Below, piece by piece: positions 7,155 through 19,012 of a stretch of 37,289 nt of DNA (positions within the stretch are counted from its first letter, which is position 1; every line of letters begins with the position of its first letter). This stretch comes from Candidatus Aquidulcis sp. (GTDB lineage: Bacteria; Chloroflexota; Anaerolineae; Anaerolineales; UBA4823): assembly GCA_020723385.1 (NCBI GenBank), contig DYIZ01000052.1:1-37289 (forward strand), in the 5' to 3' direction. Position numbers and translations under genes: made by a program. The notes below the pieces were generated by a model. That model searched no databases. It was not told the origin of the DNA and saw only the letters and a list, made by a program, of their open reading frames with translations.

Positions 7155-7187
7155 GTAACCGAAAGGGGAACTCATCAGTCCGCCAGC

Positions 7188-7233
7188 AATAGAAAGACTC
7201 CCGGAGTTTTGAAACACCGGGAGTCTTTCTATT
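7188..7233. terminator. bidirectional intrinsic terminator
   Basis: A perfect 17-bp inverted repeat pairs 7188-7204 with 7217-7233, around a 12-base loop. The stem core is ACTCCCGG and both outer flanks are A/T-rich (AATAGAAAG and CTTTCTATT), so it can work on both strands. It sits between the convergent VWA gene and the gene at 7251-7589. Confidence 0.88.
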
Positions 7234-7250
7234 GTGGGCAGAGTAATGCG

Positions 7251-14888: not shown

Positions 14889-14943
14889 CCCGGATTTGGG
14901 GTGTGAGAGTGGGCTTCGCCCACCCTCACACCCCAAATCCGGG
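14889..14943. terminator. large hairpin between convergent genes
   Basis: A perfect 19-bp arm pair (14889-14907 with 14925-14943) continues, after one mismatch, with six more pairs around a TTC loop. It lies between the giant gene and the convergent cyclase gene. No T-tract follows on either strand, so it may be a transcription barrier or a repeat element and not a classical terminator. Confidence 0.7.
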
Positions 14944-14971: not shown

Positions 14972-17900
14972 TTAATTATGCGCTGCCCGCAGTTCGCAGT
15001 TGAACGGCACGTTTTCCAGAAATTGCTGGCGCAGCGGTTCATCCCGAATAGCATTGGCGCGCACCATCATCAAGGCGTATCCGTCGGCGAGAACCTGACG
15101 CGCCCGCTCCATTTGAGCCGTCTCGCTCCCGTCAGTGAGGACACGATAAACGGTGAGAAACACCCACACGGGGAACTCGATCCCATCCGCGTCATGCTCT
15201 GCCAGCCAGGTCAGGATTATCTCAGCGTGTTCTCTTGCTTTTGGCAGATCCCCTCCACCCAGCGCCACCCGCGCCAGCCCGGCGAGGTCATCCATCGCTA
15301 AGTCAGGCTGCCCCAACTCACGGCGCAACTTCAAGGCTGCCGTAAATGCTTCCGCCGCCTGGATGAAATCATTGGCGCCGCTGTATGCCACCCCCAGGTG
15401 GTTCCAGGTGTATCCCTGGCTGTATGGGTCGTCAATCGTCCATTGCAACGCTAACGCCTGCCGGCCGTAAGACACAGCAGTGGCGTAATCCTGCTGGAAC
15501 GAGTGGATTAATCCTAAGGTGTCCAGATTGATAGCTTCATTCTCGCGGTAACCAATTTCACGACTGATGGAAAGTGATTGTTCGTGATAACGGCGTGCTT
15601 CAAGATAATTTCCCAAGTCGAACCAGTTATTGCCCAGGTTGGTCAGGATATTGGCTTCGCTGTATCGCCAGCCAATTGTCTGACTGATGGCCAGGGCCAA
15701 CTCGTATTTTCCCTGGGCGGCGATATATTCCCCGGACGTGTAGTGCAGCAACCCGAACATCAGCAGGCATTTCATCTGGCCGGGCTGGTCGTCAATAGCC
15801 TGGTACAGGGTTTGCGCCTGATCGTAATAGCCGCGTGCCGCGGCGTAATCGGCCTGTTGGTAGGCAATTCCACCAAGATCATAAAGGTTTTGGGCTTCCT
15901 GGCGGGGGCGTTTTTCAGCGCGTGCCAGGCGCAGCGATTGTTCGAGCTGCGCTTGAGCAGCATGGTATTGACATTGTTTTGCCAAAATCCGCCCCCATTC
16001 GTTTAGCCCGCCGATTCGTGTATCTAGATCATTCGCTTGTTCCGCCAAACTCACAGCGCGACGGGCGGCTTCTAATGCAGCCTCCGGGTTATCCAGCAAT
16101 CGCTCATAGATTGCCAACCGCAAGCTGACCGCGGCTTGCTTTTTGATGTCAGCCATCCGGTCGCTCAAGTCAGCTAACTGTCGTAAATCTGCCGCCTGGT
16201 TATCCCTTTCGCCGGTTACCTCGTAAACAGCTTCGCGCCCCAGGGACAGCCTGTATTGCTCTTCCAGATTGGCTTCCGGCGTCAGTTCCAACGCCCGGCT
16301 GAAGTAGCGCACCGCGCTTTCGTTGGCGTACTGCCGGGCGGCCTGTTCACCAGCCAATCCCGCAAAATGACACTCTTTTTCGGTGGCCTCGGCCTGGCGG
16401 TAGTGATGCACGAGCAGCGGAAAATAGGCAGCCTGGTCTGGCTGCGCCTCGTACCAGGAAGCGACGATTGTATGCAGCTCGCGCCGCTGGGCAAAGAGCA
16501 GGGTCTGGTAGGCTGCCTCCTGGGTGATAATGTGCTTGAAAGCGTACGCCAGGTCTGGCTCGACCGTTTCGACAAAGGTAAAGTCGGCTTCTGACAAGGT
16601 TTGCATTTGGGCACGCACGCCGGATGGCAGGGCAGGAGCATATTGGCTGAGGGTGTAATGCAGCGGCGTCAGGGCAAAGATGCGCCCGATGACGGATGCC
16701 ACTTTAAGTGTGATCTGCAACGGGGGAGACAGCCGGTCAATGCGGGAAAGGATCAACCCGTGAAGCGTGTCTGGCAGGGATTGGCTGGCCCGGTTGAGAT
16801 CACCGATGATCTGCACGCGGGGAACACCATCGGCCGCGGAAACCTGGAGGATACCCTGATCCCGCAGGGCGAAGACCAATTCCTCGGCAAAAAAGGGATT
16901 GCCGCCCGAGCGGGCTTGCACCAGGTCGAGGAATGGTTTTGGCAATTGGCCCGGCTCGACTTCCAGGCGATTGGCCGCCAGGGTTGCAATTTCACCCGGG
17001 TGGAGCGCCCCCAGCCGTAGAGTATTGCAATTATCATTCGCCGTCAGCCGAGTGAGGCTGGAGAATCCGGGGCTTTCCTCTTCCAGCGGGCGGTTGACGA
17101 TCACCAAGAGCAGCGGCAAACCATACACCCGCAGCGCCCGGGCTATCTGTTCTGCCAACAGCCACGAGAGATCGTCCAGCCAGTGCGCGTCTTCCAACAC
17201 GATCACGAGGGGCTGCGCGCTGGCCCAGGCTCGCAACAAATCGGTCAACAAGACAGCCAGGCTTTGCTGGCGCATCCTGGGTTCGAGCATTCGAGTGATA
17301 TCGTTATCCGGCAAGCCCAAATGGAGCATATCATCGAGCAAGGGGAAGAGATGGCTGTGGTCAGGCGCAAGCTGCGCGGCAAGCGACTGCACCCGCTCCC
17401 GGCGGTCAGCGGCGTCCAGAATGTTTTCCAGGCCGAAAAAGGCGTAAAACACATCCCGCCAGGCCCGGTAGGGGGTCTGCTGCTCGATGCTTTGCCCGGC
17501 CCCCAGCAGACGCGCCAGGCCGTGCGCCCGCATCAGGCGAACCAGCTCATCCACCAACCGTGACTTGCCGATCCCGGCTTCGCCTTCGATCACCAGCACA
17601 TTGGCCGCGCCGCCCTGCACGGCGTCGAGCAGCCGCTCCAGCTCGGCGATTTCATCCCGCCGCCCAACCATTTCCGGCTGGTCGTGAGCGACTGGCAACT
17701 GGTCAGTGTCTATTGGTCGGTAAACACGGATCAGCTCAGACCGGCCTTTGACGCGCACCGGCGGCAGGCTCTCGAATGCCAGTTTCGACTGCAATTCACG
17801 GTAAACGCTAAAGGCGCAGCGCATCTCGCCTGCGGGGGCGGCAGCCATCAGGCGGCAGGCCAGCACCGCATCGTCGCCGATCACGCCATACGAGCAGCGC

Positions 17901-19012
17901 GCGTAGCTTCCGTAAGCTCCTGTCCGAGCCTGGCCGCGGGCAATGCCAACCTGGGCGATAATCCCCTCAGGTTGATCGAGCTTCAGCAGCTCCGAGGCAG
18001 CGCGCACCGCCCGAAGGGTATCATCATCGTGAGCCAGCGGCGCGCCAAAAGCGGCGTACAGAAAGCTGCCCTTGTCGCCAATTGTCAACTGGATCAGGCT
18101 GCCGGCGTAAAGGTGAACAATTTGCTGCACCTGTTTGATGTAAGCGTCGAGCTTCAGGCCGGCATTTTCATCGCCTTCGTAGTCAATTCCAGAAAAGTGC
18201 AGAAAGAGCGACACTGCCGGGCGCAACTCGGGTTGGGCAGTATCTCCTCCGCTCAGTTTTTCATAGAGCAGTGGCAGCAGCCAGGAGCGGGTTTCCACGT
18301 TACTCGATGTTTCTGGCGGCATCGGGGGCCAGGGGCAGCGTTCAACCGGGAGGGATAACGTTCCTAAAACGGCATACTCAAGGCCGCTTTCCGGATGGAG
18401 ACGGCGCTCGAGAATGGTGATGGATTCTCCTAAAAGGGCTGTGCAACTCGGGGACAGGACAATCTCGCTTTTGTGCGCGACCCCCTCGGCTTCGGACATC
18501 TGGCGCAAAGTGTCGCCTGCCAGGGTGTCAATGACCTGGATTGCCGGGTCTCCAACCAGGAAACGGCGAGCCGGGCCGCTGGCGAGACCAATTTTGATCG
18601 CCAGCGCGGTTGGCGCGCCAGGAAGAATCGAGATATCGGCAAAGGCCGCCATTTCACGCTGCATCGCCAAGGCACAAGCCGCAGCGCGTAAAACAGACCT
18701 GACAGGTTTCTGAAGACCTGTCAGGTCTGTTTCATCGAACCAGCAAGTGATCGCGTCGCCTACAAAGCCGATCACACTGCCGTGAAAACTGTGTACCTGG
18801 TCAATCAGAGCAAGATACACCTGATCGAGCAGGCGGGCCAGTTCTTCGGCGGCGCGCTGTGCGCCAAAGCGCGCCATCAACCCTTCAGCCAGCGGGGTGA
18901 AACCAGAGATGTCCGCGAACAAGGCGCTCCCCTGGCAGGATTCGGGCAGGTTCATGCCCTGCGCCAGGGCGTGCAAGCGGTCAATTGGAAGATAAGCAAG
19001 CAGCGGCTTCAT
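14972..19012 (-). CDS. adenylyl/guanylyl cyclase with STAND ATPase and TPR domains (soluble adenylyl cyclase-like)
   Basis: Domain order over 1346 residues matches the ADCY10/sAC architecture. A class III cyclase domain comes first: LFADISGFTPL puts metal-binding Asp34 in place, and VGDAITCWF carries Asp86. A second cyclase-like domain (about 262-400) has FLHFSGID where Asp is expected, so it looks degenerate. Then a STAND/AAA ATPase with Walker A GEAGIGKS (477-484), and TPR repeats from about residue 900 to 1255. The product should be cytosolic and make cAMP or cGMP in response to a ligand. It starts 13 bp after the stop of the GAF-histidine kinase gene, probably co-transcribed. A 42-bp palindromic element encoding residues 95-108 sits in frame inside the first cyclase domain. 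Substrate choice was not determined. Confidence 0.92.
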   Translation of the reverse strand: MKPLLAYLPIDRLHALAQGMNLPESCQGSALFADISGFTPLAEGLMARFGAQRAAEELARLLDQVYLALIDQVHSFHGSVIGFVGDAITCWFDETDLTGLQKPVRSVLRAAACALAMQREMAAFADISILPGAPTALAIKIGLASGPARRFLVGDPAIQVIDTLAGDTLRQMSEAEGVAHKSEIVLSPSCTALLGESITILERRLHPESGLEYAVLGTLSLPVERCPWPPMPPETSSNVETRSWLLPLLYEKLSGGDTAQPELRPAVSLFLHFSGIDYEGDENAGLKLDAYIKQVQQIVHLYAGSLIQLTIGDKGSFLYAAFGAPLAHDDDTLRAVRAASELLKLDQPEGIIAQVGIARGQARTGAYGSYARCSYGVIGDDAVLACRLMAAAPAGEMRCAFSVYRELQSKLAFESLPPVRVKGRSELIRVYRPIDTDQLPVAHDQPEMVGRRDEIAELERLLDAVQGGAANVLVIEGEAGIGKSRLVDELVRLMRAHGLARLLGAGQSIEQQTPYRAWRDVFYAFFGLENILDAADRRERVQSLAAQLAPDHSHLFPLLDDMLHLGLPDNDITRMLEPRMRQQSLAVLLTDLLRAWASAQPLVIVLEDAHWLDDLSWLLAEQIARALRVYGLPLLLVIVNRPLEEESPGFSSLTRLTANDNCNTLRLGALHPGEIATLAANRLEVEPGQLPKPFLDLVQARSGGNPFFAEELVFALRDQGILQVSAADGVPRVQIIGDLNRASQSLPDTLHGLILSRIDRLSPPLQITLKVASVIGRIFALTPLHYTLSQYAPALPSGVRAQMQTLSEADFTFVETVEPDLAYAFKHIITQEAAYQTLLFAQRRELHTIVASWYEAQPDQAAYFPLLVHHYRQAEATEKECHFAGLAGEQAARQYANESAVRYFSRALELTPEANLEEQYRLSLGREAVYEVTGERDNQAADLRQLADLSDRMADIKKQAAVSLRLAIYERLLDNPEAALEAARRAVSLAEQANDLDTRIGGLNEWGRILAKQCQYHAAQAQLEQSLRLARAEKRPRQEAQNLYDLGGIAYQQADYAAARGYYDQAQTLYQAIDDQPGQMKCLLMFGLLHYTSGEYIAAQGKYELALAISQTIGWRYSEANILTNLGNNWFDLGNYLEARRYHEQSLSISREIGYRENEAINLDTLGLIHSFQQDYATAVSYGRQALALQWTIDDPYSQGYTWNHLGVAYSGANDFIQAAEAFTAALKLRRELGQPDLAMDDLAGLARVALGGGDLPKAREHAEIILTWLAEHDADGIEFPVWVFLTVYRVLTDGSETAQMERARQVLADGYALMMVRANAIRDEPLRQQFLENVPFNCELRAAHN
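18691..18732. repeat. 42-bp palindromic element inside the cyclase gene
   Basis: AAACAGACCTGACAGGT (18691-18707) and its perfect reverse complement (18716-18732) flank an 8-base loop. The element is exactly 42 bp, that is 14 codons, and keeps the reading frame. It encodes TDLTGLQKPVRSVL, residues 95-108, between WFDE and RAAACALAMQ, where cyclase domains of this type normally run on with few residues. It looks like an inserted mobile palindrome tolerated in a surface loop. Confidence 0.85.

Follow-up and report, generated by a model that had tools for sequence, protein, structure and literature searches.

A probable Y1 transposase-spread, REPIN-like repeat in a translated loop of a class III cyclase domain

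Introduction

The closest known systems to the repeat described here are the REPtrons, in which short palindromes lie beside Y1/HUH transposase genes (tnpAREP/RAYT subclasses 2.4 and 2.6, that is, RAYT groups 4 and 5) and copies are dispersed in the genome (Quentin et al. 2018, PMC6006769). The present family shares this arrangement, is symmetric as are the "double foot" REPs of these systems and, like the REPs of subclass 2.6, is devoid of the GTAG tag (PMC6006769). Unlike REPtrons, it has no GTAG/GTGG foot, forms a strict 33/34-bp double palindrome and occurs as one sequence in three phyla.

Intragenic REPs have been listed for many proteins, and the Rickettsia palindromic elements RPE-4 and RPE-6 were equated with CGTC REPs (Di Nocera et al. 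2013, PMC3733652), so palindromes inside genes are an already known phenomenon; translated ones are catalogued for tagged REPs and for Rickettsia elements. As in our family, intragenic REPs are translated in known proteins and are presumed to be tolerated in loops or linkers, but they are GTAG- or CGTC-tagged (PMC3733652), while the present repeat carries neither tag. TIRYTs (TIRtrons) resemble it in that their Y1 genes are flanked by inverted or self-complementary repeats with dispersed copies (PMC3733652); their consensus GGGGWSAS is missing here, and most TIRYTs belong to subclass 2.1 and have an HTH tail (PMC6006769). In REPINs, two inverted REP hairpins build a larger hairpin that a RAYT is thought to move (PMC3116915); the units of our repeat are only 15 nt each, with a spacer of 3–4 nt. 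Rickettsia palindromic elements offer an analogy as in-frame palindromes, with a different sequence, tag, host and size.

We found no description in the open-licence literature of the untagged double palindrome, of its sharing across phyla or of its coding copies. Here, we report such a palindrome, near-identical in three phyla, associated with a defined clade of transposases and translated in no fewer than seven unrelated genes. A series of dihydroorotase genes makes the origin of a protein loop from a selfish palindrome, and the decay of such a loop, directly testable.

Results

The palindrome in the cyclase gene

The analysed DNA, referred to as the window, is the 37,289-nt contig DYIZ01000052.1 of Candidatus Aquidulcis sp. 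(GCA_020723385.1), and coordinates are window positions. Its relevant features are as follows:

14972–19012, minus strand: host gene, 1346 aa, with class III nucleotide cyclase domain(s), AAA ATPase and TPR repeats
18422–18928, minus strand: first cyclase catalytic domain (residues 29–197) with putative metal motifs FADISGFT and GDAITCWF
18691–18732, minus strand: perfect palindrome, arms 18691–18707 and 18716–18732, encoding parts of codons 94–108 (ETDLTGLQKPVRSVL)
18695–18728, minus strand: repeat element proper, 34 bp, on the gene strand AGACCTGACAGGTCT-TCAG-AAACCTGTCAGGTCT
18714–18728, minus strand: arm 1, AGACCTGACAGGTCT, forming a 6-bp stem with a 3-nt loop by itself
18695–18709, minus strand: arm 2, AAACCTGTCAGGTCT, an imperfect self-complement as read from the sequence

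The palindrome is 42 bp long, with 17 nt per arm, 100% complementarity and an 8-nt loop. An earlier note on this DNA had described it as perfect, which it is, and had placed its start at 18689, 2 bp before the actual one. The same note counted exactly 14 codons; the length agrees, but the palindrome is out of codon register because it spans from the second base of codon 94 to the first base of codon 108. The 1346-codon minus-strand frame was said to be open through it and is indeed uninterrupted. No further arm matches with up to 3 mismatches were present in the window (0.04 expected). An 81-nt context folded as RNA gave −43 kcal/mol (z −7.7), a value equalled by none of 200 shuffles, and the 42-mer folded as single-stranded DNA gave −18.5 kcal/mol (z −7.7). 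The palindrome is far past chance expectation.

The core at positions 18695–18728 (AGACCTGACAGGT..ACCTGTCAGGTCT) is a member of a family of dispersed repeats. It is composed of two 15-nt arms placed head-to-head, each nearly self-complementary, and arm 1 alone folds as single-stranded DNA at −3.7 kcal/mol. The outer AAAC/GTTT pairs of the window copy lie outside the family consensus. In the host protein, this copy is translated as DLTGLQKPVRS.

Pfam assigns residues 29–197 of the host protein to Guanylate_cyc (E 4e-11) and residues 448–637 to an AAA ATPase, and also finds the TPR repeats; the closest solved relative is the soluble adenylyl cyclase ADCY10. The element is located in a loop ca. 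8 residues beyond the second metal aspartate and a few residues past GDAITCWF. The statement in the earlier note that such cyclases usually run straight on to the RAAxxA helix is true in part: between the metal motif and this helix, homologues and paralogues have 6–27 residues and the window protein has 16. The shortest homologue loops are 10 residues below the window loop, and some palindrome-free homologues reach 14–16 residues, near its length. In the alignment that the note had proposed, the window loop residues occurred in no homologue; the homologue and paralogue loops are unrelated in sequence, and none of their hairpins is longer than 5 bp. As judged from the sequence, deletion of 36 bp (CAGACC..GGTCTG) keeps the cyclase frame open. 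A DNA-level empty site was not found for the cyclase copy because the closest cyclase-domain homologues are just 47–55% identical. The loop, most likely surface-exposed, is tolerant of length change, and we infer that it is neutral to the host. Since it tolerates unrelated fillers, the word "domesticated", used previously for this insert, is unsupported as it stands.

The palindrome family in the same genome

The host assembly (6.43 Mb, 239 contigs) was searched with the pattern CCTNNCAGGT-N(2-14)-ACCTGNNAGG, with the reversed pattern as a control. This search retrieved 39 palindromes, and the control retrieved 0. A search with the exact 17-mer arm recovered the window and one near match; the arm was dropped as a family marker, the core pattern having exposed the family. 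The 17-mer misled because it includes the outer AAAC pairs, which no copy but that of the window has. Neither of the two outcomes named beforehand as speaking against the insertion, a homologue with the same residues or a genome free of other copies, was observed.

The majority form (C-type) is AGACCTCACAGGTTT-NNN-AAACCTGTGAGGTCT, 33 bp in length. Arms of the G-type (CCTGACAGG/CCTGTCAGG) are present in three copies: in the window, at C145:32914 and at C92:1539. About 34 of the 39 copies lie outside plausible genes and about 5 within. All three G-type copies are in long frames, namely, the cyclase, a ca. 2000-aa protein that is FG-GAP-like by its DVNGDG repeats alone (the palindrome reads NLTGLGDLSGL) and a PD-(D/E)XK nuclease (PF12705, E 7e-26; NLSGLLNLTGL). 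One further copy, of the C-type, is in a plausible 214-aa gene. The genic location of all G-type copies has a hypergeometric probability of 4e-4 when 4 genic copies of 39 are taken, and is a post hoc observation. A possible reason is that the G-type arm opens the frame DLTGFxNLSGL, which ends in TGA in the C-type.

The palindrome is interrupted by a different repeat, CTTCGACAGGCTCAGGGCAGGC, at two loci (L139 5477 and L137 643; G000:C133 and C114), in nearly the same position each time; one repeat is thus nested in another. Two contigs end at a palindrome (G000:C87:20-50 and C116:14-44), and their ends look mutually reverse-complementary, which suggests that the repeat breaks the assembly there.

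Boundaries and build of the element

In aligned flanks, AGA/TCT is strongly conserved, and conservation ends abruptly at AGACC/GGTCT, so that the element is 33 bp (majority) or 34 bp long. At its ends, neither the CGTC tag of RPE-4/6 nor any other conserved outer tag was found. Covariation is seen at pair 2 (G-C to A-T) and pair 14 (T-A to C-G), and the stem is paired in nearly all copies. The earlier note had taken the perfect arms for a sign of recent arrival or of selection on the hairpin; they do not support this as stated, because the arms remain paired in almost every copy, whatever its location. Single arms, picked by eye from palindromes that flank Y1 genes, relatives with other palindrome types included, form 5.7 of 7 possible pairs with themselves vs. 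1.9 in shuffles. The arms being nearly self-complementary, the unit is therefore a nested, or double, palindrome, in which, as in a REPIN, two inverted hairpins are contained in one larger hairpin.

GT[AG]G occurs in 5 of 72 and 16 of 256 14-nt feet with no positional conservation. A canonical GTAG/GTGG-tagged REP was rejected, the tetranucleotide being missing at the hairpin foot. The broader features of TnpAREP/RAYT-type repeats are present, i.e., a palindrome of 20–40 bp and dispersed, mostly extragenic copies. A Y1 gene flanked by the palindrome is found in other genomes and not in the Aquidulcis assembly.

Distribution across phyla

GTDB genome contigs were scanned with the G-type pattern, which yielded at least 118 stretches, and the taxonomic spread given here is a lower bound. 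Among the matches listed, near-identical palindromes come from Chloroflexota (Anaerolineae and other Chloroflexota), from Bacteroidota, including Flavobacterium, Gelidibacter, Algoriphagus and Polaribacter, and from Beggiatoa-type Gammaproteobacteria, the gammaproteobacterial carriers being Marithrix, Thioploca, Halobeggiatoa, Thiomargarita and Methylomonas. In the order to which the window belongs, 31 of 121 sampled genomes contain the palindrome, with up to 37 copies each. Higher copy numbers were seen in Marithrix (177) and in one Chloroflexi MAG (226).

Association with Y1 transposase genes

PF01797 genes were surveyed in palindrome-bearing genomes, and their flanks were inspected. Eight Y1 genes have a palindrome within ca. 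60 bp or in frame inside. These genes, with palindromes at their edges, are:

Gelidibacter gilvus: L369, L199
Marithrix: L373
Bacteroidia: L196
Methylomonas: L354
Anaerolineales: L447, L448, L450

At G. gilvus L369, a C-type copy lies 18 bp upstream and a G-type copy 10 bp downstream of the Y1 gene, and a second Y1 gene of this bacterium has another palindrome at its 5′ end. Seven copies accompany the Marithrix Y1 gene (L373), divided four to three between its two sides. A tandem palindrome array with ca. 66-bp spacing is seen at positions 920–1944 of this locus, on both sides of the gene. In a member of Bacteroidia (L196), 3 of the 8 copies in the genome are in or beside one Y1 gene (Poisson P 6e-10), which itself contains an in-frame palindrome. 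Per locus, the Poisson probabilities of flanking copies lie between 0.004 and 7e-13.

In a tree of 65 Y1 proteins, all eight palindrome-linked ones fall, scattered, within one 24-member clade (support 100/99); this clustering is partly built in, because part of the sample was collected by similarity to one member. Each of the 10 Y1 proteins tested hits NF047646 (REP-associated tyrosine transposase) with a score under the equivalog cut-off (best score, 63.5 vs. 80 bits). The Y1s show the motifs NHFH and YIH.NP (YIH[QLRKTN]NP), compared here with NH[IFV]H and YIxNNP, have an HUH-Y spacing of 60–80 in proteins other than that of L196, show no GTAG foot at their loci and fit neither subclass 2.4 nor subclass 2.6 cleanly. 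A search with the Gelidibacter protein revealed relatives in 69 of 251 genomes of the window's order, and at many inspected loci of such relatives, 33-bp palindromes of 15-3-15 build are located 5–50 bp away. The flanking palindromes are of the ACCTGACAGGT type at L447, L448 and L450 and of other types elsewhere, e.g., AGACCCTAAAGGTCT or AGACCTCAAAGGTCT; the arms of these other palindromes are inverted repeats, too.

In the Aquidulcis assembly, the same protein search detected no member of the cognate Y1 clade at E 1e-12. The Y1 genes that this genome does have were rejected as mobilisers, since the palindrome is not at their flanks; two of them, on C74 and C95, run up to the end of a contig and have an IS200-like appearance.

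Copies in other proteins

In-frame copies were also detected in a dihydroorotase (L174), a type I restriction HsdR subunit (L157), an FAD/Fe-S oxidoreductase (L261), the HATPase domain of a histidine kinase (L262) and the transposase itself (L196). Spurious-looking through-ORFs over palindromes (e.g., L251, L264 and L106) were left out of the count. The dihydroorotase loop holds the whole palindrome at L174, its right half alone at L390 and its left half alone at L392, and at L393 (G064), the translated palindrome is an unrelated one of 33 bp and 15-3-15 build, CCCTCCCCCATTTTCGGAGAAAATGGGGGAGGG; most other dihydroorotase relatives have a short loop without a palindrome. This loop looks like a hotspot. 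Because it may hold a whole, a half, another or no palindrome, the series suggests that tolerant loops receive insertions repeatedly and that these decay in frame; the halves could alternatively be independent half-copies. Blast searches with element flanks among the sampled loci retrieved no empty sites, just longer shared repeats that contain the palindrome.

Origin of the cyclase insert

We consider it highly probable that the cyclase palindrome is a REPIN-like repeat, likely spread by a Y1 transposase, which is located in, or replaces, a tolerant loop and is translated. The unit is a double palindrome of 33/34 bp in which two 15-nt mini-hairpins stand head-to-head, separated by 3–4 nt. A REP-associated tyrosine (Y1, HUH) transposase would most likely have spread the family by recognising the hairpins on single-stranded DNA, through which transposition presumably proceeds, and one copy, in a stop-free frame, would have entered or partly replaced a surface loop that tolerates length change in the first cyclase domain. 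The cognate transposase was presumably lost from, or is absent in, this genome. The essence of the earlier proposal, a mobile-looking dispersed palindrome serving as a protein loop, agrees with the 39 genome copies, the three phyla and the recurrent in-frame copies. We infer both mobility and neutrality of the palindrome.

That another transposase (DDE or IS-type) moved the family, Y1 genes being frequent insertion targets, would agree with the lack of a cognate Y1 in the genome and with the existence of longer, ca. 92-bp elements that have the same termini and variable interiors. All eight palindrome-bearing Y1s nevertheless fall in one clade, and sister Y1s have their own palindrome types at equal distances, as in REPtrons (PMC6006769, PMC3733652), which leaves this explanation improbable. 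Somewhat less probable still is a family of selected protein-binding sites or bidirectional terminators with an accidental coding copy. Such sites would account for the mostly intergenic copies (about 5 of 39 are in plausible genes), and hairpins with A/T edges do look like bidirectional terminators; arm sequence is, however, not conserved in terminators, and cross-phylum identity, copies at both edges of and inside transposase genes, the Marithrix tandem arrays and the dihydroorotase half-palindromes would all be unexpected.

A hairpin that evolved locally in the gene, by chance or under RNA-level selection such as for a translational pause, might be suggested by the very stable RNA fold and by the four extra outer AAAC/GTTT pairs. 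It is refuted for the core: the inner 34 bp belong to a family that counts 39 copies in the genome and has near-identical members in three phyla. Overall, a local origin is very improbable. The least probable explanation is true kinship with Rickettsia palindromic elements, which the earlier note had cited as precedent. Palindromes in frame inside genes are common to both, and RPE-4 and RPE-6 have been equated with CGTC-type REPs (PMC3733652); yet the conserved outer tag is missing here, the hosts differ and the present family, being of the REP/REPIN type, adjoins a clade of REP-associated tyrosine transposases, an association that CGTC REPs do not have (PMC3733652).

Going beyond insertion of a REPIN-like repeat, one may speculate that the cross-phylum palindrome is preadapted as a frame-preserving loop insert, because its usual 33 bp make 11 codons with the stop-free reading DLTGFxNLSGL, and that the Y1 system is a recurrent source of loops that decay by in-frame half-deletions. 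We regard this as rather unlikely.

Other repeats

A second class of elements, 90–113 bp long, has AGACCTGACAGGTTTC-like termini and variable interiors. It was seen at L003 1420-1511, L005 1502-1593, L010 1502-1591, L012 1422-1511, L007 1399-1511, L008 1502-1591 and L004 1417-1511; the interiors are partly related, that of L010 with L012 and that of L005 with L003 reversed. One such element, of ca. 95 bp and with the termini of the palindrome (L004/L124), is read in frame as part of a membrane-type protein of 2030 aa encoded in the Aquidulcis genome. In Chloroflexi MAGs, Go_Eff_bin_125 among them, the palindrome is at the centre of a ca. 100-bp imperfect palindrome that is repeated many times (L173, L178, L187, L219, L234, L267, L160 and L242).

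The window also contains two large intergenic hairpins, at 14889–14943 (26-bp arms) and 7173–7248 (37-bp arms). The former has convergent genes on either side and resembles a bidirectional terminator; part of the latter recurs at G000:C133:5372-5406.
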